From Citrus sinensis (lineage: Eukaryota > Streptophyta > Magnoliopsida > Sapindales > Rutaceae): a stretch of 64,000 bases of DNA. The stretch spans positions 1,116,001 to 1,180,000 of the forward strand of contig NC_068562.1 of NCBI RefSeq assembly GCF_022201045.2. Direction: 5' to 3'. Numbering within the stretch: the stretch's first letter is position 1; each line of letters begins with the position of its first letter. A program made the translations under genes and the position numbers. The notes under the pieces are model-generated. The model made no database searches, had not been told where the DNA came from, and saw only the letters and a program-made list of their open reading frames with translations. Of the stretch, positions 33,453 through 60,711 are shown in pieces.

Positions 33453-34268
33453 CACCTCCATAATTATCATATGAAATGACCCGCCCCGAATATTTAGAGT
33501 GAGTCTATCTAATCTCGCCTAAACGAATTAATAATAATTCTAATATTTAAGAATTATACTAAAAATTCGACAGAGTCTCCTATGTAGTTATGACATCCCC
33601 AAACCTGTAATTTATAAAATTAACACTCCAAAAAATGATACAATAATCAATCAACCTCCACAACCAACTTTCTCAATCAAATACTAGTATCCTTCAAACA
33701 TATAATGTCAAGAATACAAATATTTTATCCTTAATCACAAATAAGTAATAAATTATACAATTCAAAATATCTCAACAAAACATCTATGATTCCTAACACC
33801 ATTACGTGGTCATAATTTCAAACTCTAACTATCGTTGCTGGGTCGACTGATGTACCTGCGAATCTCCTGTGTGGGGGGGGGGGAATATAATAAAAACGGA
33901 GTGAATATAAAACTCAGTGAGCTCAGTGAGTGGATAATAATTTTTGAAAAAATAAATTTACTTAAAAATGATTTAATTCTTCTCTAAACAATCTCATCAA
34001 AATATCATAAGACTTTAAATAAACTTATTTAATTTAAATCATGCACTGGAATAACAATATTACATAAATCTGCATAAAATCAATAAAATCATAACATTGA
34101 TAATATCGAATACTGAATACCGAAAACTATCACCAAACAAGTACTCAGGGGAATAATCTCATCATATCCGGACCTCGACGGACAGACAATCAGGGAACCA
34201 TCATGCCTTAGAGCTACAACGGATAGACGGGGAAATGCCATCTCATATCTCATATATCTCATCATGTC

Positions 34269-35611
34269 TGTTGTTGAGTGTTAGAAAATGCATATTTATA
34301 AAGGAGAAAACCGTCATTTTACATTTCAAGTCTTACTAACAACCCTTACTTTTATGTATTTAACCTTCTTGTGATTTAATTACATGTGTTTTATTTTAAT
34401 TAAGTATTTTATGTATTTTAGGGGCATCATAGTCATTTCACAATAAACGAGAAATCAGATGGCAAAACAGACATCACTTTTGAACTCAGGACGGTCGAAA
34501 ACCTTAGGAGGAGCATAAAAGGAAAAATAGCACTGTTCACATGTACGGTACTATTCACGTGTACGGTACTGTATACGTTACTGTTCACGACACTGTTCAC
34601 ATAGATGGACCGATGACGTGGGATTGACTGATGAGGTGTCACGATCCTGTTGGACTAAAATTCTTATATACTGTTGATGGTGACGTGGCAACATATCAGT
34701 GGACGAAAAATCTCACATACGGTGCATGCATCACACAGGATTATTTTCAACCAAACTGCGTTACTGTTCAAATTCGGGTCAAACCGTGTTACTGTTCATC
34801 CGCGTGGTCAAACCGTGGACTGTTGACTGATGACGTGGCGTAATCCTGAGCGTCCAAACTATTTTTAATCTGATAGCCATGATTTACTCCATGTATCTAT
34901 AAAAAGGGGGCCTCTCCCCCCTAATTTGATATCTCTGAATCCATTTTTGGACTCTGTTTTCTGTAATTCCCTCTCCATCTTGTATTTTCTTCGTATTTTA
35001 ATAAATTCCCATTTTGCCCCTAGTTCAATTATGAGTAGCTAATTTTCTTTCAAGCTTGGGTTGAAGGTGAAGTCTCAACATGTGTCATGGGCTTAATTTG
35101 GTAAATTTATTTTCTCTTACCCTCTAGTTTTTGTGGATGTTTTGACTTCTCGTCGACAAATAATACTAATCTTGTCTAGTACCGCTTTGGTTTCACCGGC
35201 CCTCTAGTACAAGGTTATTATTATTTGGCATGATAAGCCCTTAGCACCATATTGATTAGAGCGTGGTTCATGAGGTGTGGATTCCCCCCTCATGATTTAA
35301 TTGGCATTAATAAGGAATATTTAGCCCATGATGCATGTTGATACGGATCCAGATATCCAAGTACGTCATTTCAATATAATTCTCTTCAATTTATTCTCGC
35401 CATTTCAATACCAATTTTAGAATTTATTCTCGCCATTTTAATTTAAGTTTTAGCATATCCCAAATCATTTCCACCACAAATCCAATCACCCATTTACAAA
35501 ATTAATTCTACACAATTAAAATCCACCTCCTCGTGGGATCGATACTCGTCACCATTAGTCTATACTACAATAGATTCGTGCGCTTGCGAGTACATTAAAA
35601 TTTGCACAACA
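34269..35611 (+). repeat. 5' LTR of the Athila-type element
   Basis: Begins 'tgttgttgagtgttagaaaa' and ends 'tttgcacaaca'. U3 (about 34540-34850) is full of 'actgttca', 'tacggtac' and 'gacgtgg' repeats, possible binding sites for transcription factors. A TATA box (34898-34905) and 'aataaa' (35000-35005) follow. If the LTR is taken to start at 34272, the flanking match becomes 8 bp (ATGTCTGT). The 5-bp reading is preferred because it is usual for the family and makes the PPT end exactly at the LTR. Confidence 0.93.
34898..34905 (+). promoter_or_regulatory. LTR TATA box
   Basis: 'tataaaaa' within 'tatctataaaaaggggg', followed by a pyrimidine-rich stretch where transcription could begin. The same box is at 45955-45962 in the 3' LTR, from which transcription would read out into the flanking older LTR. 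Confidence 0.7.
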
Positions 35612-35617
35612 AGTTTT

Positions 35618-35635
35618 TGGCGTCGTTGCCGGGGA
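35618..35635 (+). promoter_or_regulatory. Primer binding site (tRNA-Asp)
   Basis: 'tggcgtcgttgccgggga', six bases after the 5' LTR, complements the 3' end of plant tRNA-Asp(GUC) with one mismatch (T for C at the sixth base). Use of tRNA-Asp primers is typical of Athila/Tat-type elements. Confidence 0.85.
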
Positions 35636-35998
35636 GGTAAGTAATTTTAATTCATAGAATTAATTTTTGTGAATAATTTCTTTTATTTGTTTTCTTGTAT
35701 TTTTTTTATTATTAAAAAAAAAGAAAAAGAAAAAAAAAGTGAATCTACATTTAAAGGTTAGTATTTCTTTTCTTTTTCTCTTCTTTAAAATTCTGTAATT
35801 TAATTTTCAATTTATTTTTCTTTATAATTTTTTTTTATCTTATTAATTTATTTTTAGTTAATTTATTTCACGTATTTGTTTTTGTGTATTTTTATAGAAA
35901 TGTTTTAATAGCGCAATAAGGTTAGTATCGTAATTTCTCCCTCTTATTTATTTTTATTTGTTTTGTTCCCATCTTTATTTTCATTTTATTTGTTTTGC

Positions 35999-37663
35999 AT
36001 GCATGGTCGTAGGTCATTATTACCTAATCTTGAACTTATAGATCTTGAATTAGAAAAAACACTTCGCACACAAAAGCACATTAAAAATAAATTTGAAATG
36101 GATTTGCAACCACAAGAGAGGCCATTTAAGGACTACTTCAGTCCCTTAGCTAATTTGAGCACATCATGCATAAGATACCCAAATGTAGCTGCTAGGAGTT
36201 TCGAATTAAAACCTAGTGTGCTAAATTGTCTCCTCACATTTTATGGCCTAGAAAATGAGGATCCATATAATCATCTGAATGATTTTCATGCCATTTGTCA
36301 AACTTTTAAATATAAAAATTTTTCAGACGATGATGTTAAACTTAGACTATTCCCATTTTCTTTAAAGGATAGAACTCGTTCATGGCTTAATACATTGCCT
36401 GCTAATAGCATTGCATCATGGGAACAAATGGTTACAAAATTTTTGAATAAATATTTTCCAGTGCATAAAACCAATACTATTCGCAGGGAAATCTCGGAGT
36501 TTACCCAGAGAGAGGATGAGCAATTTTTCGAAACATGGGAGCGATTCAATGGGCTACTCTTGAAGTGTCCACATCATGGGTACGAGAAATGGCACCAATG
36601 CCAATACTTTTTGGAGGGATTATTGCCGAATGTGCAAGAATGGTTAATGGCAACAAGTGGAGGAGAGCTAATGTCAAAAAGTGCATCAAAAATTTGGGAA
36701 TTCTTCCAGCGACAAGCGGATAATTCCTAACAACGGAGTCGATCACTCAGGAATACTAGAAGGATTAAGGGAGTAAATGAGATTCAAATTGGCGAGTCAA
36801 CTTCGGGAATCAAAGAAGTCAAGGAGATGGTTGAAGGTCTTGCTCGACAAATAGCATCGTTATCGACTGCTAAATCAATAGAGCCACATGACCATGACTC
36901 ATACTCAGATCAAGTCAATGCCATAGGTGTAATAAGAAAACCATCTAATTACAACCCATACTCCAACACATATAACCCTGGATGGAGAGACCACCTTAAT
37001 TTTTCATGGTCTCAAGGATTCCAACAGAATGGACCAGCAGCTCCAGCTCCACCAATGCAACAAATTTCTCAAATTCCTCAAGCCTCTCAGCCCCCATTTA
37101 GACCATACAATCAGAACCAGAACTACTCTCAACCCATACCATGGGAGGATTCATTCCAAAATCTCAAGAATCTTACTCACTCTACGATTGAGCAACAGAA
37201 CCGCACCATTGATGGACTACGAAATGAGTTAAGAGCAGGCTTCAACTCACAAGCTCAATCAGTTTCAAGCCTCGAGAAGATGGTGGGACAACTTGCTTCT
37301 TCAGTTCAGACCTTGGCAATGACTGTTGAGAAAGGCAAATTTCCAAGTCAACCAGTGCCTAATCCTAAAGGAGTACATGAAGCAAGTACCAGTTCACCAC
37401 AGCAGCATGGAGAAGTCAAAGCAGTAATGATCTTGCGAAAAGGAAAAGAAGTCGACAACAAAGTGGAGATGCCGGTGACAAAAGAAAATCAAATTTTACC
37501 TGTGAATGTTGAGGACTCACCACCGGAGGAAAAAGAAGAAACCAACCCACGAGAATATGTTCCTAAAGCTCCATTTCCTCAGAGGTTAGCGAAAGGAAAG
37601 AAAGGAAAATCCACAGGTGAGATTCTCGAAATCTTCAAACAGGTAAGTGTTAACATTCCTTAA
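35999..37663 (+). pseudogene. gag: gag (capsid/nucleocapsid polyprotein), interrupted
   Basis: Structural protein of the retrotransposon particle. The first ATG in frame is 35999; a second candidate is at 36098 (MDLQPQERPF). The retrotransposon gag domain is clear ('FPFSLKDRTRSWLNTLPANS', 'EQMVTKFLNKYFP', 'ETWERFNGLLLKCPHHGY'). A TAA at 36728-36730 breaks the frame; the same frame then continues with 'VNAIGVIRKPSNYNPYSNTY', a Pro/Gln-rich linker and 'YVPKAPFPQRLAKGKK', a phrase found just ahead of protease in Athila elements. Further stops follow at 37661 and 37679. The nucleocapsid knuckle (CxxC zinc motif) was not seen. Confidence 0.9.
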
Positions 37664-37732
37664 CTTGATGCTATTAAATAAGTTCCATCTTATGCCAAGT
37701 TTCTTAAAGACCTTTGTACTAAAAAGAGAAAT

Positions 37733-38161
37733 ATGCATGTTCAAAAGAAGGCATTTTTAACAGAAAACGTTAGTTCTATACTCCAACATAAAATTCCTTT
37801 AAAATGCAAAGACCCAGACTCCCCCACTATCTCATGTAGTATAGGGAACCACACAATTGAGAATGCTTTGTTGGATTTAGGAGCTAGTGTAAATTTGTTG
37901 CCTTATTCAGTATTTGTGAAACTTGGACTGGGAGAATTACACCCGACTCCAGTGGTGTTACAGCTTGCAGATCGGTCCACGAAAATACCTCGTGGTATTG
38001 TGGAGGACGTGCTTATCCAGGTAGACAAGTTTTATTTTCCTGTTGATTTCATTGTAATTGACACTCAACCAATACAGGATTCGAGGAAGCACATCCCCAT
38101 TATTCTAGGCTGACATTTCTTGGCAACTGCGGATGCTCACATTTAATGTAGGACTGGAAAT
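37733..38161 (+). pseudogene. Retroviral-type aspartic protease domain, interrupted
   Basis: Would cleave the Gag-Pol polyprotein. The active-site phrase is 'LLDLGASVNLLPYSVF' with the catalytic Asp codon at 37874; the Athila-typical 'DLGAS' replaces the more general DTGA/DSGA. It is followed by 'LQLADRSTKIPRGIVEDVLI' and 'VDFIVIDTQP'. A TGA at 38111 and a TAA at 38147 break the link to RT. The protease fold itself is otherwise complete to the 'IPIILG' strand. Confidence 0.88.
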
Positions 38162-39663
38162 ATGCAGTTGTCTTTCGGCAACATAACTATGGAGCTAAAC
38201 ATCTTCAATATTGCCAAACAACCTCACAGTGTAGATGATGGAATTGTTGATGTGGATTTAATTGAAGCATTAGTTGATGATACTTTTGTTTCAAACCTTA
38301 GTGATGATCCTTTACAAACATGTTTAACTCACTTTGGTTTGGATTTTGATATTGACAGATCAGTCGATGAGGTCAACGCCCTGCTTGACTCAGCACCATC
38401 TATGGACACTAATAAATGGAAGTCAAGAGTTGAGCAACTAGCACCATCAGAGAAGAAACTCATCCCATCATCAGAATCACCACCGAAACTCGAGCTCAAA
38501 CCATTACCCAACACTCTGGAATATGCATTTTTGGGAGAAGAAAGTACTCTACCGGTAATCATCTCATCATCCCTAAATGACGAACAAAAAGGTAAGTTGT
38601 TGGATGTTTTAAAAGAGCACAAAGGAGCATTAAGATGGACCATAGCAGACATAAAAGGTATAAATCCAGTAGACTGCATGCATTACATTCACCTTGATGA
38701 AAATGCTAAATCTACTAAGGAAATGCAACGTCGGTTAAATCCTAATATGAAAGAAGTTGTTAGAACAGAAGTCCTTAAGCTATTAGATGCAGGTATCATT
38801 TACCCAATTTCTGATAGTTCATGGGTCAGTCCTGTACAAGTTGTGCCCAAAAAGTCAGGAGTCATAGTAGTTACCAATGCTGATAATGAATTAATACCCA
38901 CTAGAGTAACTACAGGATGGCGTGTTTGCATTGATTATAGAAAGTTGAATTCTGTCACACGTAAAGACCATTTTCCTTTACCATTTATCGATCAAATGCT
39001 TGATAGATTAGCAGGCCATGAATTTTATTGCTTTCTAGATGGCTACTCAGGATATAATCAGATTCCCATAGCACCAAAAGATCAAGAGAAAACTAATTTC
39101 ACTTGCCCTTTTGGCACTTTTGCATATAGGAGGATGCCATTTGGATTATGTAATGCACCTGCTACATTTCAACGATGCATGCTAAGCATTTTTTCTGATA
39201 TGGTTGAACGATTTCTTGAAGTCTTTATGGATGACTTTTCTGTCTTTGGTGACTCGTTTGATCAATGTTTACATCATTTAACACTAGTTTTGCAGAGATG
39301 TATCGAGAAGAACTTGGTCTTAAATTGGGAAAATGCCATTTTATGGTAAAACAAGGTATTGTTCTCGGTCACATCATTTCGAGCAAATGTATTGAGGTTG
39401 ACAAAGCCAAGGTGGATCTCATTTCTAATCTTCTTTCACCCAAAACAGTCAGAGAAGTAAGATCTTTCCTTGGGCATGCTGGTTTTTATAGACGTTTCAT
39501 TAAAGATTTTAGCAAAGTTTCTAGACCCTTATGCAATCTACTTGCTAAGGATGTACATTTTTTCTTTGATGATTCATGTCTTGTTGCGTTTGAAAAATTA
39601 AAGCATTTGTTGACATCATCACCCATCATTCAGCCCCCGAACTAGAACTTACCATTTGAGCTC
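38162..39663 (+). pseudogene. pol: Reverse transcriptase domain, frameshifted
   Basis: RNA-dependent DNA polymerase. Visible: 'PVQVVPKKSG', 'WRVCIDYRKLNSVTRKDHFP', 'FLDGYSGYNQIPIAP', 'RMPFGLCNAPATFQRCM' and the catalytic 'FMDDFSVFG' (first Asp codon at 39230). At 39326-39334 the frame shifts: the thumb ('VLGHIISSKCIEVDKAKVD', 'VRSFLGHAGFYRRFIKDFS') is read in another frame from about 39330. A TAG at 39643 separates it from RNase H. All conserved RT blocks are recognisable. Confidence 0.93.
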
Positions 39664-41391
39664 ATGTGTGATGCATCTGATTATGCAGTAGGAGCAGTAT
39701 TAGGACAAAGAGTTGATCGAATTCCCCACGTTATTTACTATGCTAGTATGACATTGAATGATGCACAGTTGAACTATTCAACTACTGAAAAAGAAATGCT
39801 AGCAGTAGTGTTTGCATTAGAAAAATTTCGATCCTATCTCATTGGTTGTAAAATAATTATATTCACAGATCATGCTGCTCTTAAATATCTTCTCACAAAG
39901 AAAGATGCAAAAGCTAGACTAATTCGTTGGGTGTTACTTTTGCAGGAATTTAACTTGGAATTCAAAGATAAGAAAGGGACAGAAAATGTTGTGGCGGACC
40001 ACCTCCCTCGTCTCCATTTTGACACAATTACAGAGCTATTAATATTGAATGAGTCATTTCCAGATGAACAATTAATGAGTGTGGAAGTATTACCTTGGTA
40101 TGCTGATATAGTTAATTATCTTGTTATAGGTAAACTTCCAGAGCATTGGACCAAGCAAGACAAGGCTAAATTCTTTGCAGAGATAAAGAATTTCTTTTGG
40201 GATGACCCGTATTTGTTCAAGTATTGTACTGATCAAATTGTTAGACGATGTGTCCCAGAAAATGAAATTCAGAATATTCTTTCATTCTGCCATGAACAAG
40301 CTTGTGGAGGCCAATTCAATGCTAAGAAAACAGCAACTAAAGTTTTACAATGTGGTTTTTATTGGCCAACTATATTTCGAGATGCTTACACTTTTTGTTC
40401 TTCATGTGATAGGTGTCAACGAATGGGGAGCATTACGCGAAGGAATATGATGCCACTAAATCCAATTTTAGTGGTTGAGATTTTTGATGTATGGGGTATC
40501 GACTTCATGGGACCTTTTCCCCCGTCTTTTGGCCATCAATACATATTGGTTGCTGTTGACTACGTATCGAAATGGGTAGAAGCAATTCCATGTAGAACCA
40601 ATGATCACAAGGTGGTGATAGGATTTTTGAAAAGTAATATTGTCTCACGCTTTGGATTCCCTCGAGCAATAATTAGTGATGGTGGTGCCCACTTTTGTAA
40701 CAAAGCATTCAAAGCTCTTTTGACAAAGTATTCAATCACACACAAAGTGGCGACTCCGTATCATCCGCAAACCAGTGGCCAAGTTGAGATATCCAATCGA
40801 GAAATAAAGCACATATTAGAAAAGACGGTGAGGCCGGACAGAAAAGATTGGTCATTAAGACTTGATGATGCCTTATGGGCATACAGAACGGCTTTCAAGA
40901 CCCTGATTGGGATGTCACCCTACAGGCTAGTGTATGGAAAAGCTTGCCACCTACCTGTGGAACTCGAGCATCGTGCATATTGGGCTATCAAGAAATTCAA
41001 TTTTGACATGCAGCAAGCCAGCTCAGAAAGAAGATTACAGCTGGCAGAACTTGAAGAAATTCGCAATGATGCATACGAAAATGCCAAGATTTACAAGCAA
41101 CGAATGAAAGTCTTCCATGATAAGCAAATTATGAGAAAATCATTCACTCCAGGTCAGAAAGTGCTTTTATTCAATTCTCGCTTGCACCTATTCCCAGGTA
41201 AGTTACGCTCTCGTTGGTCTGGCCCATTTATTGTTCATACTGTTTTTCCACATGGGGCAATTGAAATTAAGGACCCAAAGAACGGTGTCACGTTTAAAGT
41301 TAATGGTCAAAGATTAAAGCCATATCTAGAGTACCAACCATATGAAGAAAACACCGAAATAAATTTGAGTGACCCACCAAATTTGAATTGA
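39664..41391 (+). CDS. pol: RNase H and integrase part of Pol, open for 575 codons
   Basis: Longest intact piece of the element. RNase H: '[14 protein letters not shown]', '[18 protein letters not shown]', '[13 protein letters not shown]', 'VVADHLPRL'. Integrase: N-terminal zinc region '[12 protein letters not shown] ... CSSCDRCQ', in which the second His expected in 'GGHF' is a Gln; the core has D,D-35-E residues in 'WGIDFMGPF', 'IISDGGAHF' and '[13 protein letters not shown]'. The C-terminal '[13 protein letters not shown]' region is followed by the TGA at 41389. No chromodomain is present, as expected for the Athila lineage. The upstream stops mean it is not made as part of a full polyprotein in this copy. 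Confidence 0.93.
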
Positions 41392-41518
41392 TTTTTTTTT
41401 CTTTTCGTTGATTTGATTTTTCTTTCTTTCTTTTTATTATTATTCTTTTGCTAATTGAAATTGTTTTTGCATAAGTGTGTTTATTTTACCATTAAGTTTT
41501 CTCTTATCATTTTTAATC

Positions 41519-41752
41519 ATGAGTCTCATACTTAGACTGTTCCTCCTGAACATTCTTAAACCACTTCAACGTGTCAAAACTCATCTCAAAAGGCAGATTC
41601 AATTTTGTAAAACACAACGCATTTGGGCTCTACAACCACCAGAGTTAGTAGCCTATGTTGAGGGTTTAGAACGCCAACTCAGAGACATTGAGAGAAGTGT
41701 TTACGACATCCAGTTGGAGCTTGAGGTAAATTCAATAAGAGGACGATTTTAA
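41519..41752 (+). CDS. Small ORF downstream of pol: hydrophobic N-terminus and helical tail, 77 aa
   Basis: Unknown protein. The ATG at 41519 begins 'MSLILRLFLLNILKPLQRV', a short hydrophobic, Leu-rich segment. A basic stretch follows, then 'LVAYVEGLERQLRDIERSVY', which has the heptad look of a coiled coil. The frame is open further upstream but without a better ATG. It sits 130 bp after pol, where some Athila elements have an env-like ORF; a truncated membrane-anchored relic is possible, though no family match is claimed. It could also be a chance ORF. Confidence 0.45.
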   Translation: MSLILRLFLLNILKPLQRVKTHLKRQIQFCKTQRIWALQPPELVAYVEGLERQLRDIERSVYDIQLELEVNSIRGRF

Positions 41753-41887
41753 TTGTGTGTTTTAATTTGTTTTTCTATTTGTGTGCTTTAGTTTGTTACC
41801 CAGGTGAAGTGGCGGATAACGGTACTCCGTGACAATCAAGTCGGTTACTTCAGTTTCCCATAATAACTGATATTCTGAGGCGAAGGT

Positions 41888-42361
41888 ATGGACAGAAACG
41901 AGATTCTAGCGAAGCTTCACAAGCGATTCCCTTCATTTCCTCAGAATGCCCTCCTTACGATCTATAAAACTTGGTCCGAACGCATGCGATTACTCATGAG
42001 GAATAACATACCTGCTGACATCCGTTGATTAATCGAGGCTAAAGTACGATCGGCAGGTGAGTTACCTCCAAAATTTATTGCATACATGCCTGGTTGTGGT
42101 AAAGGAAATTATGCAAGAAAACGACGAGCTCGAAGAATTTCTGTTGCTTGTCATAAGTGTGCCAGAATGAGTTGCAATAAAAACCCATGTTCTTTAGGAA
42201 TGATGTCTGATAACAGGGAAAATAAGATTCAATTCATTAGGGATGGCTTGAATAAGGAGTCATTGGATGATATCCTTTTGTCTCTTGAAACGCATCCCAG
42301 TGGATATGTGCAAGGAGCGATTCTCCAGTTATGGCCATTATTCCAGAAAGAGCATGCATGA
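41888..42361 (+). pseudogene. Basic Cys-rich ORF of the retrotransposon, one in-frame stop
   Basis: Frame of 158 codons from the ATG at 41888 to the TGA at 42359, broken only by a TGA at 42026-42028 (codon 47). Before the stop comes a helical, aromatic segment ('FPSFPQNALLTIYKTW'). After it, residues 76-83 are 'ARKRRARR', followed by four cysteines C88, C91, C96 and C101 (CxxC-x4-C-x4-C), then a helical tail. A nuclear-localisation-like basic run directly before a compact Cys cluster suggests a nucleic-acid-binding protein. The pattern resembles the small Cys-rich nucleic-acid-binding proteins of carlaviruses and relatives, several of which suppress RNA silencing; this is resemblance of layout only. 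The portion after the stop (42086-42361) has its own ATG. Confidence 0.6.
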
Positions 42362-42790
42362 TATAGTCTCGGGAATCTGACTATAAACGACCCTGTTTGC
42401 CAGTTTATAAGAAAACTGGATAGGAAGCCTATCCTCGACCCATAGAGGGCGTTCAAGCCGTTTCTGGACGTAAAACTAGAGGAAGATGTGAGCCACAGTC
42501 GCAATTACCTGTAAATATCCTTTTTACTTTACTGTTATTTTATTTCACTTCATTGTTGTTTTATTGTTTGCATTATTGTCTTTAATAATTTTATTATTGT
42601 TTTCTTTTTCCTTATTACTGTTTGCTTTTTCCTTTTTTACTGTTTCCTTTTTGACTCGCAAGCCACGTGCTTACGCGTTATTTGACACTGACATGTTACC
42701 TCATACACAACTGTGACCCACTGTCACCAAGACTCTTAAATGTGATTTTTTTTGTCAAGCACTCACGAATTGTTTTTGAGAAATATTCCA

Positions 42791-43459
42791 ATGGCAGCTA
42801 CTCCAAATAGACAATTCAAGAACATTTGTGTGCTTTCTGGATTTACCTATGGCAAACATAAAGAGTTCGTTGAGGCAGCCATCGATCTTGGTCGAAGTAT
42901 AGCAGAGAGAAAATTACACTTGGTGTACGGAGGAGGTAACCGAGGGTTATCAAAAATGGTCTCAGAAGCAGCTTTTATCAGAGGAAGTCAAGTGTTAGGC
43001 ATCATCCCAAGAGTCCTAAAACCATTGGGCAGTTCGTCTGACTCATCAACTGGAGAAGAGTTAGTCGTCTCAGGTATGCAAGAAAGAATAATTGCAATGC
43101 TTAATCATGCTGATGCTTTTATTTTCCTTCCAGGAGATCTTGCAACACTAGAGGCACTTATCACACTAGCATCTTGGGCCCATCTGCACATCCACCAGAA
43201 ACCCATCGGTTTGTTAAATGTCAATAACTTTTATGATGGCTTTATCGCATTTCTTAACCATGCAATAAAAAACTATTTCATTCTCGCTAATGTGAAAAAA
43301 CTCTTTATTTGTGCTCACACTGCTAATAAGCTACTTGATCTGTTACAAGCTTATAGACCGGAGCCAGACCCCTGGACCTTTGTGTTGGAACGTCCAAATA
43401 ATGATGGTAACAGTAGCAGCAGTAAGAAGTACAAATTAGATTTAACTCTCCGCCTGTAA
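42791..43459 (+). CDS. LOG-like (cytokinin-activating phosphoribohydrolase family) ORF inside the retrotransposon, 222 aa
   Basis: LOG enzymes release active cytokinin bases from their riboside monophosphates in the cytosol. This ORF starts at ATG 42791 (MAATPNRQFKNICVLSG); the frame is open a little further upstream but lacks an ATG. It covers the full LOG fold: 'NICVLSG', 'LHLVYGGGNRGLSKMVSEA', 'VLGIIPRVLKP', 'SGMQERIIAMLNHADAFIFL', 'SWAHLHIHQKPIGLLNVNNF'. The signature PGGxGTxxE reads 'PGDLATLE' (114-121): two glycines are lost, Thr119 and Glu121 are kept, and Arg99 is kept while the Lys that normally follows it is Ile. It has no intron, unlike plant LOG genes, so capture from a spliced RNA is likely. 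It lies within the element, sense to pol. Activity is doubtful; the fold is probably kept. Confidence 0.87.
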   Translation: MAATPNRQFKNICVLSGFTYGKHKEFVEAAIDLGRSIAERKLHLVYGGGNRGLSKMVSEAAFIRGSQVLGIIPRVLKPLGSSSDSSTGEELVVSGMQERIIAMLNHADAFIFLPGDLATLEALITLASWAHLHIHQKPIGLLNVNNFYDGFIAFLNHAIKNYFILANVKKLFICAHTANKLLDLLQAYRPEPDPWTFVLERPNNDGNSSSSKKYKLDLTLRL

Positions 43460-43642
43460 ATATTTTCTTCTGTGTTGCACCACCCAGGTGATGTCTTCTA
43501 AACTCTACTTCTTTCATTTCAAACATTGAGGACAATGTTTCGTTCTGGTTGGGGGGAGGGAATAGTCGACAATTGTGGAATTTTGGTTAAGTTTTTACTA
43601 ATTTTTTGTTGTAGAAACTAACTGTCGCTAACTTTTTGTGTT

Positions 43643-43858
43643 GAAGATGGCTGAATATGGAGTGTAGTGACTCTAGAAACGAATCTTCATCGTTTAAAAA
43701 AAAATTAAAAAAAAAAATTCAGACATTTTCTTTTTCTTTATTATGTGTTTATGTTTATTTTTCTTCTTTTTAATTTCTCCTCTATAAATATTCATTTCCC
43801 AACTTTTGAGTCGAAGATGACTGAATATGGAGTGTAGTTCCTCTAGAAACTCATCTTC
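43643..43858 (+). repeat. Two copies of a hairpin-forming 46-bp block
   Basis: 43643-43689 and 43813-43858 share 'gaagatgRctgaatatggag', 'tgtagt' and 'ctctagaaac', and end in 'atcttc', which pairs with the leading 'gaagat'. They are spaced 170 bp apart in the 3' non-coding part of the element. Function unknown; a structured RNA element is possible. Confidence 0.6.
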
Positions 43859-45316
43859 TTTAAAAAAAATAAAAAATCATTTTCGTTTTCTATCATTTTA
43901 TGTGTAACTTTTCTAATTAATTTTTATGCATCATTTTCACATTTCTGCATGCATATTTTCCTTTCATGTTTAGAATAGGTTGGGGGGTAGAATGTTGTTT
44001 AAAAAAAAAAATTTGTGTGATTTGTTTTAACATTGGGTGACATGATTAATTTTAAATTTTAGTATTTGTATTACCTTTGGTCTTAAGTGATGTTACATTA
44101 TGTTTGCCACTCTACATGTTGATGTCGGAGACATATATGAGTTGCTTGAAGGAATAAACATGTCATAATAAGTACCAAGTGAGTTTTTGAGCCTATCATT
44201 TTTCTTGGAGAGTAACCCTTTTGCCCATTCTTTATACAGCTTAACAGTTTATTATTGTATACACGATCTCTAGATTTCTTTTGAGTTAACCCTTAATAAA
44301 AAAAAAAAAGTGTGTTGCTACATTTGGAGGCCCATCTAACTAGTAGATATGGAAGGTTATTTAGAGCCCTAAAAGACGATGGAAAGGCTATCTTTGATCC
44401 GTTTGAGCCTTTCTAGCCATCCCTTTTATTAAATATCCATAGTTAACCCTTTTGAGCCTTAAAAAAAAAACATTTTCTTTGTCAACTTATCATCTTGACC
44501 CACTCCGATTTGAAGTATTACCCGATATCTTATAAGTTCCATCACCTATTTATGTTTGAGAAAATGTAAATAATTATGTTGTTCAGTGAAGTTATACAAA
44601 AAAAAAAAGCAAAAAAAAAAAACAACAAAACAAAAGTTGTTGTTTCAAAAGAATAAAAATAACAATAATAGGTGAAATCCACCTTGCAACTTGAAAAAAA
44701 AAAAAATCTCTGCATTTTTCTCAAACATACACTTTGTTTTCCTTATTTCCTTTCTTTGTTAACCATGTCCCTAGCCTACGTTACATCCTAATAAAAGTCC
44801 TTTCTGATTTTAGGGAACTATAATCTAAAGTAGAAGCTAGTTATATGGGCTAAAAAGATGTAGTGGTGCATATAAAAAATAAAAATAAATTGGGTTGACT
44901 AACAGTTTTTATTTGACTTGAGATCGTATTATTTTGATGCTGAGGGCATATTTATTTCATCTTGGTGAGAGCATGTGATATCACTTCTTCATTATTTTCT
45001 CTCAATTACCATTCATTGGAGTGACTATTTTTATTGGGTTTAATTTCTTTGTGAGAGTGTCACTACTTCCAGTGAGATTTTGGGGTTTGACATGTCATTC
45101 TTGAAAGTAGCTATAACAAAGTCTACTGGGCTGATTCATGTGGATGGTTGATGTGGGTGTGATGTTACTTTAGACTGGAGATAATGCTTATACTTTTATT
45201 TGATTGCTATCATTAATCTGATTGAATAAACACAAGTGTTTCTAAATTTTTTAAAAAAAATCATTTTGAATTTGAATTTTATTTTCGCTTCATTTGCTAG
45301 GGACTAGCAATAAGCT

Positions 45317-45326
45317 GGTTGGGGGG
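45317..45326 (+). promoter_or_regulatory. Polypurine tract (PPT)
   Basis: 'ggttgggggg' directly abuts the 3' LTR ('tgtgttgagtg'). It would prime plus-strand DNA synthesis. Two near-identical G-tracts lie upstream at 43548-43556 and 43978-43986. Confidence 0.75.
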
Positions 45327-46668
45327 TGTGTTGAGTGTTAGAAAATGCATATTTATAAAGAAGAAAACCGTCATTTTACATTTCAAGTCTTACTAACAAC
45401 CCTTACTTTTATGTATTTAACCTTCTTGTGATTTAATTACATGTGTTTTATTTTAATTAAGTATTTTATGTATTTTAGGGGCATCATAGTCATTTCACAA
45501 TAAACGAGAAATCAGATGGCAAAACGGACATCACTTTTGAACTCAGGACGGTCGAAAACCTTAGGAGGAGCATAAAAGGAAAAATGGCACTGTTCACATG
45601 TACGGTACTATTCACGTGTACGGTACTGTATACGTTACTATTCACGACACTGTTCACATAGACGGACCGATGACGTGGCATTGACTGATGAGGTGTCACG
45701 ATCCTGTTGGACTAAAATTCTTATATACTGTTGATGGTGACGTGGCAACATATCAGTGGACGAAAAATCTCACATACGGTGCATGCATCACACAGGATTA
45801 TTTTCAACCAAACTGCGTTACTGTTCAAATTCGGGTCAAACTATGTGACTGTTCATCCGCGTGGTCAAACCGTGGACTGTTGACTGATGACGTGGCGCAA
45901 TCCTGAGCGTCCAAACTGTTTTTAATCCGATGACCATGATTTACTCCGTGTATCTATAAAAAGGGGGCCTCTCCCCCCTAATTTGATATCTCTGAATCCA
46001 TTTTTGGACTCTGTTTTCTGTAATTCCCTCTCCATCTTGTATTTTCTTCGTATTTTAATAAATTCCCATTTTGCCCCTAGTTCAATTATGAGTAGCTAAT
46101 TTTCTTTCAAGCTTGGGTTGAAGGTGAAGTCTCAACATGTGTCATGGGCTTAATTTGGTAAATTTATTTTCTCTTCCCCTTTAGTTTTTGTGGATGTTTT
46201 GACTTCTCGTCGATAAATAATACTAATCTTGTCTAGTACCGCCTTGGTTTCACCGGTCCTCTAGTACAAGGTTATTATTATTTGGCACGATAAGCCCTTA
46301 GCACCATATTGATTAGAGCGTGGTTCATGAGGTGTGGATTCCCCCCTCATGATTTAATTGGCATTAATAAGGAATATTTAGCCCATGATGCATGTTGATA
46401 CGGATCCAGATACCCAAGTATGTCATTTCAATATAATTCTCTTCAATTTATTCTCGCCATTTCAATACCAATTTTAGAATTTATTCTCGCCATTTTAATT
46501 TAAGTTTTAGCATATCCCAAATCATTTCCACCATAAATCCAATCACCCATTTACAAAATTAATTCTACACAATTAAAATCCACCTCCTCGTGGGATCGAC
46601 ACTCGTCACCATTAGTCTATACTACAATAGATTCGTGCGCTTGCGAGTACATTAAAATTTGCACAACA
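45327..46668 (+). repeat. 3' LTR of the Athila-type element
   Basis: Matches the 5' LTR base for base apart from about 25 substitutions, mostly transitions (many at CG or CNG sites, as expected of methylated DNA). TATA box at 45955-45962. Ends 'tttgcacaaca' and is followed by the target duplication ATGTC. Confidence 0.93.
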
Positions 46669-48403
46669 ATGTCTGTGCATGCATAATCTGGTCCCCAAAG
46701 GACAAGGCACCCAAGCACACGACCCAAAGCCTCTGTGTGTACTCAGATGGGCCTCAAAGGCCTATATCTCATTTGTATCATCATATTTCATCTATATCAT
46801 ATGTCTCATCTGTAATCTCAATATCTATTTGTATCTCAACATCTGTATCTCTGTAATCATCATACTGCATGCATAAGCTCCCAAAAGGCAAAATCGCCCA
46901 AACACACGGCCCAAAGGCCAAAGCCTTTATGTGTGTTCAGACGGGCCCCAACAACCTCTCATCTCATATCATTATTATCACTGTATCTGGAAGAAAAGGG
47001 TACTGTCCAATATTTTGCAACAACCTTTTACACAATGTACAGAAATCACATCTGAAATCTCATTTCCTTTTTATTTAACATATCTCAAATCCAGTCAATT
47101 CTACTATCATGCATTTAATAAAAAATGATAATAAAAGCATTAATCAAACTCATTTTTAACAATGATAAATATCAACGCGTAGATTAAAATCAATTTCTAG
47201 AAAATCATTAAATCGAAGCATCAAATACTTATTTATCAAAACATGCTGTACTCTATCGTAGAATCAACATCTACTATGAAAATATGTTTTATATATTCCA
47301 CTCATAGTGATGACGTTCGAACTCAGTATCGTCAACATCTACAGGTTGATTCTCGTTCGTGAATCCTCTTAATTCAAGGAAACGACATAATCATTTTTCG
47401 TAAATGTGAAATACAACTAATTTTACATAATAATTCTCGAAACGAATATCTATCAGCAATAAACTATTCCCGTATGCATAAAATTACCAAAATACCCCTA
47501 CATGTCAAAATTACCAAAATGCCCCCAACATCATTATTTTACCAAGTTATCCTCAAAATCTTCAATTACCAAACTACCCTCAATTCAAATCACAAAAATA
47601 ACCATAATGTCAGAAATTACGAAATTACCCTCGAAGTGCGAAATTACTAAAATGACCTTAATAACTTAAATTACCGAATTACCCTCAAAATCTCAAATTA
47701 CCTAACTGCTTTAGTCCAAAATTACTAAATTATCCATCAATTCCAGAAATTACAAACTTATCCCCAAAGTTTGTGAAATTATCGAATTGCCCCTACCGTC
47801 AACGGTGACCAGGATTCAGTCGACGACGACAAGAAGCTTCCAAGTGGCCGATCGATAGAAATCCGATCGTTTTAGGTGACAGGGTTGGTCGAAAAATGAT
47901 GAGGGTGAGCTGAGGAACAAGATCCCGGTGGTGGTGCGGCCCAACTCCTGTGGAATCGAAGGCGACTAAAACGGGTGGAGTCGCAATCTTTTCGGGCTAA
48001 ATCGCCGGTAACCCGCAGTTCTTTCGAGCTAAATCGACGGCATTCTGGCCGTTTTTCAGCGACGAGGATGGATGGAGTATAACGACCGACTTCCAAGCTT
48101 CAATTCGGTACCTTGCTCGACCGGTGTGGTGGTCAGAATCATGAGATCCGACCAGGTCACGTTCGCGGGTCGGGTCAGGTTCGCAAGTGAAAACCAGGTC
48201 AACTCTCTCTCTCTCTCTCTCTCGCGCACGCACCCCGTCTCTTTCTCGTTTTGGAAACCAGCTCCCCCCATTCCATTTATAGAAATTAGCTTTTTTTTTA
48301 AAGCTTACTACCAATTAAGCTAATGCTGGACCTGTGTTGAAATAAAATTCGACTACACAGCCATTGAATCATGTTCGAATTGTCTCAATTTTATGTCGTG
48401 ACA

Positions 48404-50538
48404 AATTTAAATTTGTTCAAAACACGATCCATTTATTAACTCGACTCAAATCCATTAATTCATGATAAGAAATCAAGTCGCGTCAAGTTTGTCCGTAATA
48501 ATTTGTAACCAACCTGACGACTTTAAAATTAATACCGAAACGAAAAACACATAATACACTTAATTAGGAAAAATTAAGGTGTATATGTTACATCATATGA
48601 TCTTATAATATAATATCACATTATCTACCTCTTTAATTGATGCTAAATTGCATTTTGCAAGCCTATATAATTTAATGATTTCAATTAATTTTTACCATAT
48701 GTGCATTCAAAATGCAATTAATTCTTAGAAAATATATATGTCACAATGGCTCCTATTCTTGTCAGGTTCATAATGACCTCGATTTATTTTTGTTATTTGT
48801 ACATGTCATAATCTCTTTGATTAGGAAGAATTAATGCAAGTCCAACCAAAAGTAATAGTTACTGTGCGGTTGGCAAAAAAATTTTAAGGCTTGGACTTTA
48901 AGAAAAAATCTCGCCGTACCTGGAGCTCAGGTTCTAATAAAAAAAATAATTACTTTCATTGGATTTTCACTAAAATCTAATTTGAACCAATTTTGAAGTT
49001 TTTATAAGATCCATCTCAAATCTGATTCAAAGAAATAAATTTATATTTGAGACAAATTTATGCCGAGTTTGGGTTTAAGTGTGTTTTTTTAATGCTTGGG
49101 GCTGATGGTACAATTGATGTAATTTGAGTGGTGAACTTTGGTGATTATATAAGGGATAATTTAGAGAATTCAGAGAAGCTTATAAAAATTAATTTAGAGA
49201 GTTGATATGAGGAGTTAAAGTGAGTTAAAGGGTAGCGTGGTAGCTTCGAATAGGTCATGTACTAATTCTCTTCTTTGAAAGTGTAGAAGAAAGAAGTAAG
49301 TGAGCTCAAGGATTCTTAGAATAGCTGGGATAGCTCAAGTGAGCCCATATGTGAAATAAAATTTGGGCACCAAAATCATCCTAATAAGTAGAGATAAGTA
49401 TAAAAATAAAGAACACAAAAGAATTTACGTGGTTCAACCTTTTGGCCTATATCCATTGGAGCATCTCATCACCAATCCCCTATATAAATAAAGTATTACA
49501 TAATTCATTTTACAATATGAACAAATTCTACTAAAGGTTGTTTACGGTGAGTAATAACATAAAGGAGAATATGAGTTTAGTAGAGATAAGAGAGGTCTCC
49601 ACAATAAGAATAAGGGAAAAACTCCTTTGAGAGGTGATGTGATGAAGACCTTTCATGGAGGTGTAAAAATAGAGGAAGAAACCATAAAATTGGTAGAACA
49701 AAAAGATGAAGCGGCTCAAAAGTCTCGAGAGTTAGGAAAAAAAACCAAGAGGCCTCCTTCTTATGTGCCTTTAGGTGAGTATATATAAGTTCGATGCCTT
49801 AAGGGCATTTTCATATTTTTCTACAATGTGGCACTTCTTTGTTTGCTGGATCCACTAAAATGAGATTGCTAACCAAGTTATAATCAAGTTATAAGTGATA
49901 TTTATTGCCAATGGGCCCGTAGCCCATTGGCACACCCATGCCCTCAACAACCTTGAAGGCATGGGTTTAAGTCTCAGTGCATGATCAACGTTGAGACTTG
50001 ACTCCCCTATATGATGGGGGTTAGTAGGCTCTCTACATTGGAATAGAATCGATCTCTCTCTAATATTAATAGTGAGGGTAAAATCTCCTTCCTAACTTTA
50101 TATGATGGGGGTTAGTAGGCTCTCTACATTGGAATAGAATCGATCTCTCTCTAATATTAATAGTGAGGGTAAATTCTCCTTCTAACTTTAAGTAAGGGTT
50201 GATATTTAGACTGTACTGTAATATGATTATTTATGAGAGTCCCGATTTATTTTGAATTGTAAATAATAATAGCGCTCTGATTGTAATATATTAAAAAAAA
50301 GTGATCTTAATCATTTGTACTCTTGTACACATAGCGGTTGTTGACTGGCAGCCTTACTGCCCTTACGAAGGTAGTTACAGAGATGTTGTGGCATCATCTG
50401 CTGACGAGGTACCTTTTTAAGTTTGATTTCTTATTAGTTCCTTATTTTTAGGTTAAAAGACAAAGAACTTTTCCTCATTGATGCTGATATTTAGGAAACA
50501 CATATGGCACCAACATATCTTGATTTCCTTTTATTTTT
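48404..50538. other. Intergenic; SINE and LTR-like fragments
   Basis: No gene. Around 49420-49510 the phrases 'tttacgtggttcaacctttt' and 'cccctatataaataaag' resemble the LTR or leader of a plant Copia element; a similar 'taagtggttcagcaacccgc' occurs at about 58640. A SINE-like unit with an internal duplication is at about 49910-50190. The remaining sequence is AT-rich and unrevealing. Confidence 0.5.
49910..50190 (+). mobile_element. tRNA-derived SINE-like element with 91-bp internal duplication
   Basis: It has an A-box-like 'gtagcccattggc' and, 40 bp later, a B-box-like 'gggtttaagtctc', the spacing of a Pol III promoter from a tRNA. The body 'tatgatgggggttagtaggc' to 'gtgagggtaaaatctcc' is present twice in tandem (starts at 50010 and 50101), nearly identical. 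No A-tail or target duplication was defined. Confidence 0.5.
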
Positions 50539-50756
50539 GGGAAATTTACACCAATAACCATAAAAATTTTGACTTTTTCTATCTTAGCCCCCCAAACAAA
50601 CTTCTATCAACATTAGCCATAAAAAAGCCTTTGAGACCAAAATACCCCTCTTTCTCATCTTGAGAAAGCGGGAATATACGCAACCAACTATCAGCACAAT
50701 TACACAATGCTTTTATTTTTCTTTTTTCTTTTTTATTTTGGGTAGCGAGAGAACAT

Positions 50757-51413
50757 TTACAACTTGACGCACATCCTGAATTCAACTAACATGCAGTCAT
50801 ACCTTGCAACACCTTTTCCTGGAGTCCCACCGCACCATGCAACCTCAGCAAAGCCTTTAATAATGTTTCCTTCAACTAGTTCGCCATGCACTTCAAGGTT
50901 CACAACCTTCGGGATTCCACTACCTTTGCATAATGAAGGCGCATAAAAAAGAACAATAGAGACTTTTAATAAGCATTCAGTAAACAATGAATTTTAAAAA
51001 ATAAAATAAAATAATTTACCAATGTCTTCATGCTTTGGCCAATATGAAAGATATGCAATTTAATTCAACAAAAAGTGAAAGACATACCCCGTGAAACTGG
51101 AGAAGATATGGCAAAGATAGGAGGGTACTCAGTTTCTCCCAGCATAGGAGTACATTCCACTTTCAGAAATTTACCGATGTCTTCATGCTTTGGCCAATAA
51201 ACCTGGTCATCATAAGGTGTCATCAACATAAGAGAAGAGAGAGGAAAAGCAATATTTTCCACCCAAAGTCCAAACAACAAAGAAGATATAGCTAGAATCA
51301 GTTACCTCACTGGTGACACCAGAAATATCAACAAAAATTAAAAGCGGTCTCTCTCCTATGAACCACTGATATTTCAAACCTAATTGCAGATCAGTGCTCA
51401 CAGTGCTGTCTTG
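50757..51413 (-). pseudogene. AIR9-like gene fragment (with introns) in Pack-MULE A
   Basis: The minus strand encodes pieces of the repeated A9 domains of AIR9, a large plant microtubule-associated protein that marks the division site. Visible: 'DLQLGLKYQWFIGERP', then after an intron 'VYWPKHEDIGKFLKVECTP' and 'FAISSPVSR', then after a second intron 'IPKVVNLEVHGELVEGNIIK' and 'AEVAWCGGTPGKGVA'. Splice donors and acceptors (for example 'gatgaccag' before 'VYW') are still present, so genomic DNA was captured, not cDNA. Identification rests on the conserved 'AEVAWCGGTPGKGVA' phrase. Truncated at both ends; not a functional gene. Confidence 0.72.
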
Positions 51414-51433
51414 AACAAAAACAAAGTGACTGT

Positions 51434-51703
51434 GACAAGCATCTTGTTCGACTGGTTGATCTTTTTCATGATTTTCTATTATCTGGGCAGGTTGATGGTT
51501 CATTTGAAAAGCTTCAAAACTCTATGGCATTTGAAAGAGATGGAGAAACAAGTGTTTTTGTCCGGACTAGCAAAGCCATTGTGGACACCTTGGCTAAACA
51601 TTGGACAACAACTAGAGGTGTTGAGATTTTGTCCATGGTGTCTAGTCAGCTCAAGGATAAACAGCAGGAGCATGAAAAGTTTCTGCAGTTTCTAGCTTGG
51701 TAC
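51434..51703 (+). pseudogene. NUP133-like nucleoporin fragment in Pack-MULE A
   Basis: An open frame of about 85 codons reads 'LVRLVDLFHDFLLSGQVDGS', 'SMAFERDGETSVFVRTSKAI', 'DTLAKHWTTTRGVEIL' and 'KQQEHEKFLQFL', then runs into the tandem array. I recall this text from plant nuclear-pore protein NUP133, but could not check it. The fragment lies back to back with the AIR9-like piece, in the opposite sense. Confidence 0.5.
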
Positions 51704-51850
51704 GACAGGCGACAGGCACCTGTCGCACCAAGCTTCGTGCGACAGGCGCCTGTCGCACTAAGTTTCATGCGACAGGTGCCTGTCGCTCTAAGTTTTGGTG
51801 CGACAGGTAATCTGTCGCACTAAGCTTCGTGCGACAGGCAGTCTGTCGTC
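51704..51850. repeat. Tandem array of palindromic GCGACAGG units (about 5 copies)
   Basis: The unit is about 34 bp: 'gtgcgacaggYgcctgtcgc' followed by 'ac(c/t)aagYttY'. Each unit has a self-complementary core. The matching array in copy B (52688-52768) has about 3 units. Confidence 0.85.
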
Positions 51851-52524: not shown

Positions 52525-52767
52525 GGGAAATTTACAAAAATAACCATAAAACTTTTATTATTTTCACAATTAATCCTCTCAACTTTTTTCTATCAACATT
52601 AGCCAAACACACGCTTTTCTCCCCAAATTACCCTTCTGAACTTGATCGAGAGTTTCAGAACTGCGAGTCATGAGTGAATCTGACGACAGACTACCTGTCG
52701 CACCAAAACTTAGAGCGACAGGCACCTGTCGCACGAAACTTGGTGCGACAGGTGCCTGTCGCACCAA

Positions 52768-53030
52768 GCTAGAAACTGCAGAAACTTTTCATGCTCCTGC
52801 TGCTTATCCTTGAGCTGACTGGACACCATGGACAAAATCTCAGCACCTCTAGTTGTTGTCCAATGTTTAGCCAAGGTGTCCACAATGGCTTTGCTAGTCC
52901 GGACAAAAACACTTGTTTCTCCATCTCTTTCAAATGCCCTAGAGTTTTGAAGCTTTTCAAATGAACCATCAACCTGCCCAGATAACAGAAAATCATGAAA
53001 AAGATCAACCAGTCGAACAAGATGCTTGTC
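52768..53030 (-). pseudogene. NUP133-like fragment in Pack-MULE B
   Basis: Mirror copy of the fragment at 51434-51703, almost identical (it reads 'LGHLKEME' in the shadow frame where A reads 'LWHLKEME'). Truncated at both ends by the array and by the AIR9-like piece. Confidence 0.5.
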
Positions 53031-53050
53031 ACAGTCACTTTGTTTTTGTT

Positions 53051-53707
53051 TAAGATAGCACTGTGAGCACTGATCTGCAATTAGGTTTGAAATATCAGTG
53101 GTTCATAGGAGAGAGACCACTATCAATTTTTGTTGCTATTTCTGGTGTCACCAGTGAGGTAACTGATTCTAGCTATATCTTCTTTGCTGTTTGGACTTTG
53201 GGTGGAAAATATTGCTTTTCCTCTCTCTTCTCTTATGTTGATGACACCTTATGATGACCAGGTTTATTGGCCAAAGCATGAAGACATTGGTAAATTTCTG
53301 AAAGTGGAATGTACTCCTATGCTGGGAGAAACTGAGTACCCTCCTATCTTTGCCATATCTTCTCCAGTTTCACGGGGTATGTCTTTCACTTTTTGTTGAA
53401 TTAAATTGCATATCTTTCATATTGGCCAAAGCATGAAGACATTGGTAAATTATTTTATTTTATTTTTTAAAATTCATTGTTTACTGAATGCTTATTAAAA
53501 GTCTCTATTGTTCTTTTTTATGCGCCTTCATTATGCAAAGGTAGTGGAATCCCGAAGGTTGTGAACCTTGAAGTGCATGGCGAACTAGTTGAAGGAAACA
53601 TTATTAAAGGCTTTGCTGAGGTTGCATGGTGCGGTGGGACTCCAGGAAAAGGTGTTGCAAGGTATGACTGCATGTTAGTTGAATTCAGGATGTGCGTCAA
53701 GTTGTAA
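53051..53707 (+). pseudogene. AIR9-like fragment (with introns) in Pack-MULE B
   Basis: Plus-strand copy of the AIR9-like fragment. Coding pieces 53063-53157, 53267-53373 and about 53540-53665 are separated by sequences with intact GT and AG ends. In the second intron the phrase 'attggccaaagcatgaagac' repeats part of the preceding exon (53266-53297 versus about 53423-53447), a small internal duplication shared with copy A. Confidence 0.72.
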
Positions 53708-53931
53708 ATGTTCTCTCGCTACCCAAAATAAAAAAGAAAAAAGAAAAATAAAAGCATTGTGTAATTGTGCTAATAGTTGGTTGCGTATATTCCCGCTTTC
53801 CCAAGATGAGAAAGAGGGTATTTTGGTCTCAAAGGTTTTTTATGGCTAATGTTGATAGAAGTTTGTTTGGGGGTTAAGATAGAAAAAGTCAAAATTTTTA
53901 TGGTTATTGGTGTAAATTTCCCAAATATATG

Positions 53932-60608: not shown

Positions 60609-60711
60609 GTTTATTCATTTTCTTGTTAATTTGATTAATTGTTACACGTTTTATTGTTGTTAAAGCTAAATAAAAAATAATTTATTAAATTCTTTACAAT
60701 CAAATTCAACA

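Follow-up and report, generated by a model that had tools for sequence, protein, structure and literature searches.

Predicted adjacent CRP-like and LOG-like genes under purifying selection in Athila-like Ty3/gypsy retrotransposons of Citrus sinensis

Comparison of retrotransposon copies in the Citrus sinensis genome showed that two adjacent predicted genes, coding for a CRP-like and a LOG-like protein, co-occur in diverged element subfamilies and are under purifying selection. Judged on sequence features, there is about an even chance that the pair is a selected, long-lived two-gene cassette of an Athila-like lineage, in which the LOG-like part would be a non-catalytic protein with a binding or corepressor-recruiting role.

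The window (the whole stretch of DNA analysed, 64,000 nucleotides) contained a single Ty3/gypsy element with both of its ends present (34269-46668, 12.4 kb). The same 5-bp target-site duplication, ATGTC, was read directly on its 5' side (34264-34268) and on its 3' side (46669-46673). The 5' LTR (34269-35611, 1343 bp, + strand) matched the 3' LTR (45327-46668, 1342 bp, + strand) at 98.1%, and both had TG...CA ends. Over the 1342 aligned bases the LTR pair differed by 22 transitions and 3 transversions, giving a K2P distance of 0.0189. A borrowed rate of 1.3e-8 per site per year dates the insertion to about 0.7 My ago, and a rate of 7e-9 to 1.35 My ago. Two short features on the + strand were read from the letters: a PBS-like sequence, TGGCGTCGTTGCCGGGGA (35618-35635), which we take to be of the tRNA-Asp type, and a polypurine-tract-like sequence, CTGGTTGGGGGG (45315-45326), directly 5' of the 3' LTR.

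All coding regions of the element were on the + strand, in the order gag, reverse transcriptase (RT), RNase H, integrase, and LOG-like ORF. They comprised gag (Retrotrans_gag, 35963-36730, Pfam 1.6e-19), the RT part of pol (RVT_1, 38162-39349, 3.4e-26), and the RNase H and integrase part of pol, which was open over 575 codons (39664-41391; RT_RNaseH 5.4e-35, rve 7.5e-16, Integrase_H2C2 1.5e-10). The RT frame was broken in the window copy, the next piece (39265-39645) lying in a different frame, and gag-pol as a whole appeared in the ORF list as several broken pieces. Downstream of pol were a small accessory ORF (41477-41752), the CRP-like ORF (41888-42445, 185 codons where intact, with in-frame stops in the window copy), and the LOG-like ORF (42791-43459, 222 codons), all three on the + strand. 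An open frame matching the small accessory ORF was present in 34 of the 41 rows of the window's family (family 1), a set made up of the window and 40 copies picked from the 149 other best LOG matches. Its counterpart in the second family had 73 codons (L052:9-230), and no Pfam family matched it at E up to 0.1. The initial annotation dealt with the LOG-like ORF; it did not mention the neighbouring ORF with its likeness to viral CRPs, nor the tail at the C-terminus of the LOG-like protein.

The LTRs, the target-site duplication, and the gypsy domain order agreed with an Athila/Ty3-gypsy layout, and the LTR pair, the ATGTC on both sides, and this layout bore out the initial placing of the LOG-like ORF inside an element and sense to pol. 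A one-off insertion beside a host gene was rejected on the LTRs, the target-site duplication, and the presence of at least 150 copies. The name Athila itself is a putative label for the window element, drawn from its layout and the PBS. One RNase H region was found in the seven pieces scanned with Pfam, which took in the broken frames and spacers only in part; a second RNase H (aRH) marks the Tat lineage (PMC6317226). The extra 3' ORFs described for Athila (env-like and Athila ORF1) occupy the same slot between pol and the 3' LTR (PMC6317226, PMC11728184), but no env-like or Athila ORF1 Pfam domain was found in the seven scanned pieces of the window element. Athila elements are abundant in Citrus, with 8,999 reported over eight genomes (PMC7145672).

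Translation of 42791-43459 gave 222 amino acids and a stop in an open, intronless frame. The protein matched Pfam Lysine_decarbox at 4.5e-27, and the LOG domain model NCBIfam TIGR00730 covered its whole length with 124 bits (cut-off 96.35), so the uninterrupted 222-codon LOG-family ORF first annotated here was recovered as such. A non-LOG Rossmann family was rejected, LDcluster4 matching far less well (6.8e-10) than Lysine_decarbox. With the equivalog model NF058542 the scores were 90.4 and 78.5 bits (cut-off 300), a shortfall of little weight because this model was made for bacterial and archaeal annotation. The nearest solved structures were both from Arabidopsis, At2g37210 (2a33, 2e-43) and At5g11950 (1ydh, 1.4e-40), which are presumably AtLOG3 and AtLOG8. 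Similarity to these plant LONELY GUY proteins extended over the whole domain, and the core was 36-45% (about 40%) identical to host and Arabidopsis LOGs. The element protein differs from them in being intronless, in forming a clade on a long stem, in the absence of the catalytic Glu, and in an extra LxLxLxL tail. The lack of introns noted at the outset was confirmed: host LOG matches in the same genome were exon-split across the motif region, whereas the element ORF was unsplit.

A LOG tree was built with 8 of the 10 host loci, the other 2 being too partial. The element LOGs formed one clade on a stem of length 1.35, which joined one host LOG with support of only 48/31. The Pseudomonas LOG, also on a branch of 1.35, was placed among the plant LOGs, so the long branches in this tree are unreliable. 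Capture of the gene through RNA, as initially proposed, is still plausible, but the placement of the element clade among LOGs is too weak (48/31) to add to it.

Each search scored 150 of 1372 to 2110 candidates, taken from the top of a ranked list; the copy numbers are therefore minimum values, and good copies are over-represented among those analysed. At least 150 near-full-length copies of the LOG-like ORF were present in the 300-Mb genome. All of the 150 scored matches (the best 150 of 2110 candidates) spanned residues 1-222 or 2-222, and 149 of these 150 contained no stop. For counts of single residues, 81 distinct places were used, namely the window, L001-L060, and L073-L099, minus seven repeats of a place (L001-L005, L007, and L049). 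An unbroken full-length LOG match was found in 76 of the 81 places, and these were counted. Left uncounted were L083 (LOG absent from the fetched stretch), L094 (open, with the first residue outside the region), and the frameshifted L095, L096, and L099.

The motif region of the LOG-like protein was changed in the same way throughout the element copies. That the PGGxGTxxE signature is altered had been recognised in the initial annotation, which gave it as PGDLATLE; the altered state stood, but the true form is PGDLATLEA, in which the retained Glu precedes the catalytic one and the final, catalytic Glu has become Ala. For CgLOG, Arg99 and Glu122 have been proposed as catalytic; the phosphate is held through the Gly116 and Gly118 backbone and the Thr119 side chain, the adenine by Lys100 and Glu121, and the prenyl group by Glu125 and Trp129 (PMC4979012). 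These roles were transferred through the motif and through alignments with the structure relatives, and the two numberings coincide by chance. Glu122 was present in 0 of the 76 distinct copies (Ala 74, Val 1, Thr 1). Asp was invariant at position 116, Ile at 100, and Thr at 125 (76 of 76 copies each), and 74 copies had Ala at 118. Retained residues were Glu121 and Trp129 (76/76 each), Arg99 and Thr119 (75/76 each), and Gly47, Gly48, and Gly49 (82, 81, and 83 of 83 rows, repeats not yet removed). Three element loci outside the count (L071, L072, and L100), with tails or frames partly decayed, were likewise without the catalytic Glu. The catalytic Glu was kept at 9 of the 10 host LOG loci of the same genome, the exception being L070 with a Lys and a stop. 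The catalytic change is not the decay of one copy, because both families and the further loci share it. The absence of the catalytic Glu from all 76 copies disfavours a functional LOG enzyme and makes the earlier description as a hormone-metabolism gene doubtful; we infer that the LOG-like protein has given up cytokinin phosphoribohydrolase activity.

The retained residues leave room for a changed enzyme, which would still bind or hydrolyse a nucleotide with an altered substrate or mechanism, the tail serving only for localisation or binding; shifted cytokinin or nucleotide pools would then favour dividing cells. This is judged unlikely. Among six subfamily representatives the motif region (110-131) was 91.2% and the core 79.2% identical, which agrees with such an enzyme, as do the kept Arg99, Glu121, Trp129, Thr119, and glycines 47-49, but Glu122 is missing from every counted copy and the substitutions at 116, 100, 125, and 118 alter the phosphate, adenine, and prenyl sites given for CgLOG in PMC4979012. 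A dead protein could also enter mixed dimers with host LOGs and lower local cytokinin activation. CgLOG is a dimer in which Glu125 and Trp129 come from the neighbouring molecule, placing the prenyl site at the interface (PMC4979012), and the core identity of 36-45% to host and Arabidopsis LOGs is consistent with this. It is nevertheless regarded as distinctly unlikely: the conserved tail is left unexplained, and mixed dimers are doubtful because the divergence from host LOGs is large (stem 1.35). AlphaFold models of the LOG-like and CRP-like proteins were unusable (mean pLDDT 38.8 and 40.1), probably from lack of a deep alignment.

The LOG-like protein is laid out as the LOG core, about 20 variable residues, and then KKxxLDLTLRL, which in the window reads KKYKLDLTLRL (43424-43456, + strand), a tail of the EAR-type pattern LxLxLxL. 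Leu216, Leu220, and Leu222 were found in 76 of 76 distinct copies and Leu218 in 75, so that the LxLxL pattern is conserved. Tail identity was 88.5% among the six subfamily representatives, and 95.2% over the last seven residues (216-222), compared with 58.4% in the linker (191-211) of the same proteins. Two host LOGs (L066 and L070) were readable through their C-terminus to the stop, and neither had the LxLxLxL tail. The chance of LxLxL within the last 12 residues of this Leu-rich protein is about 2% by composition, so the argument for an EAR motif rests on conservation and not on presence, which could be chance. LxLxL EAR motifs act via TOPLESS corepressors (PMC10942257), and the tail resembles an EAR-type motif, as predicted from this short pattern.

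The companion ORF was open over 185 codons between pol and LOG in 32 of the 41 rows, and the second element family also carried it, with a protein 68% identical to that of family 1. The family-2 protein matched Carla_C4 at 3.9e-4 (20.8 bits, cut-off 20.9) and, over 87 residues, Viral_NABP at 5.8e-4 (20.3 bits, cut-off 23), and these were its sole Pfam matches at E up to 1. The open piece in the window matched Carla_C4 at 5.8e-4, and the full family-1 proteins gave weaker values (0.01 and 0.05-0.08). In the rows of A4, at E up to 1, Carla_C4 was matched in 5 of 5 rows (4 distinct places) and Viral_NABP in 4 of 5 rows (3 of 4 places). None of 8 shuffled controls matched Carla_C4 or Viral_NABP. 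One of the 8 shuffles matched two other families, at 0.05 and 0.37. A Viral_NABP search of the whole 300-Mb genome yielded 10 matches with E of 0.1 or less, the best at 0.008, 2 of them flagged over the curated cut-off, and the same search gave no match in 14 control genomes. Neighbourhoods were checked for 5 of the 10, and all 5, including both matches over the cut-off, were directly upstream of a same-strand LOG ORF (four by coordinates and one, L100, by reading).

A Cys motif C-x2-C-x4-C-x4-C was present in 53 of 56 distinct CRP copies, a count that took in copies with a full-length match and excluded the window copy with its broken frame. Visual inspection of the aligned proteins showed a basic stretch, RKRRARR or KKRRAKR, that precedes the first Cys by four residues. 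This recalls the CRPs of carlaviruses, allexiviruses, and mandariviruses, in which a basic stretch likewise stands a few residues before the Cys motif; in carlavirus CRPs it is an arginine-rich NLS adjoining the zinc finger (PMC8742542). The matches to the viral families Carla_C4 and Viral_NABP covered 25-93 profile positions and were mostly below the Pfam cut-offs. Differences from viral CRPs were the spacing CX2CX4CX4C, which does not follow the carlavirus zinc-finger spacing CX2CX12CX4C (PMC9559581), an extra conserved C-terminal region, and the location in a retrotransposon. A PDB search with the family-2 protein gave no match at E up to 1, and four viral-contig scans (P0002, P0001, A4, and A3) gave no tblastn-confirmed relative. 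The similarity is weak but repeated, and the ORF is called CRP-like and not a CRP.

Both protein features could be of a more general kind: the tail, with its KK and hydrophobic repeat, would be a general contact or localisation signal, and the likeness to viral CRPs would be convergence of a basic zinc-finger protein. Both motifs are short, the single-protein CRP matches lie under the curated cut-offs, and the Cys spacing is unlike that of carlaviruses. On the other side, the family-2 protein matched no families other than the two viral NABP ones at E up to 1, and half of the genome Viral_NABP matches, both over-cut-off ones among them, adjoin LOG ORFs. This reading of the tail and the CRP-like ORF is judged unlikely.

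The order of the CRP-like and LOG-like ORFs was the same in family 1 and in the second family (LOG 75% and CRP 68% identical). A CRP match in the same order was also found in 7 of 8 further loci, the LOG of which was 71-94% identical to that of the window; L076 had no CRP match within the fetched stretch, and the frame was open only in L075 and L080 of the seven. In a CRP-ascertained sample of 20 copies (L081-L099 and L050), LOG was open in 16, 15 of them full-length and L094 cut by the region; in the remainder it was frameshifted in 3 and not seen in 1. The CRP frame was broken more often than the LOG frame, with stops in 11 of 56 CRP copies versus 2 of 76 LOG copies, both counted among unbroken full-length matches.

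The pooled Nei-Gojobori omega for LOG was 0.109 in the 41 LOG-ascertained rows, a biased choice of copies, 0.225 in 16 CRP-ascertained rows, 0.242 (s.e. 0.16) in ten family-2 copies, and 0.238 among the six subfamily representatives, whose pairwise dS reached 0.86. For CRP the pooled omega was 0.283 in 37 LOG-chosen rows and 0.348 among six representatives. Three close CRP pairs among the representatives had omega of 0.56-0.84, which is expected from decay after insertion and is not proof of constraint. The RNase H-integrase region of the same copies gave 0.134 (37 of 41 rows kept). L079 was not part of the CRP selection set, elsewhere rows with indels were dropped (37 or 38 of 41 kept), and the rearranged copies L010, L029, and L035 inflate dN/dS. 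Since end branches include neutral decay after insertion, the omegas should be upper estimates. With codon models in IQ-TREE, a free omega gained 78.5 lnL units for LOG and 29.1 for CRP over omega 1, the omega=1 status of the second model being read from its syntax.

Between the two families, DNA identity over aligned and over all columns was 78.5/67.8% in the CRP-LOG spacer, 72.5/72.1% in CRP, and 78.0/77.3% in LOG, so the ORFs do not stand out by raw DNA identity, the spacer being equally similar. The between-family dS was about 0.75, equivalent to some 29 My at the borrowed rate of 1.3e-8, and the cassette is for this reason old as well as selected. A captured gene without function, carried along by a successful element, would also be expected in many copies, and with a window LTR distance of K2P 0.0189 young copies look intact regardless of function. 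Such a passenger is hardly credible, given a LOG omega of 0.24 between subfamilies that differ by a pairwise dS as high as 0.86, a doubled lnL difference of 157 against omega 1, and a linker that diverges where tail and motif stay. The initial concern that the ORF might be a one-off passenger was answered by the at least 150 copies, by omegas of about 0.1-0.35, and by the rarity of stops in LOG.

A change of job is the simplest reading of the LOG-like protein, because the Glu is gone, the changed motif is constant, the core is constrained, and the tail is kept. Within the cassette preferred here, the LOG fold is probably retained, perhaps together with dimerisation and nucleotide binding, and the protein would act as a binding or scaffold protein. 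Its EAR-type tail would recruit or titrate TOPLESS-type corepressors, which may help element expression or escape from silencing. The CRP-like protein, with its basic stretch near the Cys motif, would have the role presumed for the viral proteins, nucleic-acid binding in the nucleus, and would possibly suppress RNA silencing. The effect of the pair may be either a damped silencing of the element or a cell state that favours transposition. In two citrus mandariviruses the CRP acts as a pathogenicity factor, in one case as a suppressor of silencing, and silencing suppression is common among carlavirus CRPs (PMC12172455). A counter-defence module, in which a nuclear nucleic-acid-binding protein related to the silencing-suppressor CRPs of flexiviruses and a dead LOG with a TOPLESS-binding tail would together redirect host corepressors and silencing and thereby allow expression of the element, is put forward tentatively, as a lesser possibility. 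If true, an endogenous element would share its kinds of tools with plant viruses and effector-bearing pathogens.

The LOG domain in Citrus Gypsy elements was already in print, and the initial view that such cargo was undescribed had to be given up. A YgdH domain (LONELY GUY family) has been reported for Gypsy consensuses from Citrus sinensis, from C. clementina, and, without the filter used there, from Populus trichocarpa, a finding called 'in line with' Steinbauerova 2011 (PMC9289625). These Citrus elements are probably of the same kind as that in the window. The section of PMC9289625 on YgdH gives the presence of the domain only and is silent on the Glu, the tail, selection, and the CRP-like neighbour; the loss of the Glu, the tail, the CRP-like partner, and the selection go beyond that section. 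A search of CC-licensed literature, with few subscription papers, found no account of the lost catalytic Glu, the tail, a CRP-like partner, or selection acting on the ORF. The same source describes orchid Gypsy elements with an m6A demethylase domain that has its cofactor-binding residues and is active as purified protein (PMC9289625). That domain, too, belongs to an accessory ORF with an enzyme fold that the element gained and kept, but it is active, whereas the LOG of the window element is without its catalytic residue.

The results point to an abundant plant Ty3/gypsy family with two selected, predicted extra 3' genes that have testable features, namely the absent catalytic residue, the EAR-type tail, and the CRP-like Cys motif. 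They also advise caution, in that LOG-family matches in genomes of this kind may come from transposon genes that lack the cytokinin-activating residue.

The retrotransposon contained a third accessory ORF at window positions 41477-41752, with a counterpart at L052:9-230 in the second, diverged element family. This ORF of 73-91 codons was common to both families, with a DNA identity of 67.6%. An open frame matching it was found in 34 of the 41 family-1 rows (the window element and 40 other copies). The spacer between the viral cysteine-rich-protein-like ORF and the LONELY GUY-like (LOG) ORF (L052:969-1335 compared with family 1) was identical between the families in 78.5% of aligned columns, a similarity as high as that of the coding parts despite a LOG dS of about 0.75. 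The spacer may harbour a leader, promoter or splice signal.

Two host LOG loci, L066 and L070, were located nearby on the same contig as the window (G000:C7, near 1.37-1.41 Mb). Judged from its sequence, L070 looks like a pseudogene, because it contained a stop and the catalytic Glu was replaced by Lys.

The window also contained a pair of inverted repeats of about 1.25 kb (50532-51785 and 52684-53929, 97.2% identity between arms), accompanied by short tandem repeats of period 30 at 51709-51848, and a tandem array at 60175-60629 (period 176, 2.6 copies, 98% matches).

The element was flanked by four F-box ORFs that also carried F-box-associated domains. Each was a single open frame; they lay at 1588-2757, 23122-24312 and 27154-28296 on the minus strand and at 54672-55802 on the plus strand. 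Since a ribonuclease T2 match was also present about 70 kb outside the window (G000:C7:1250015-1250510), the region may be a self-incompatibility (S) locus within which the element was inserted.
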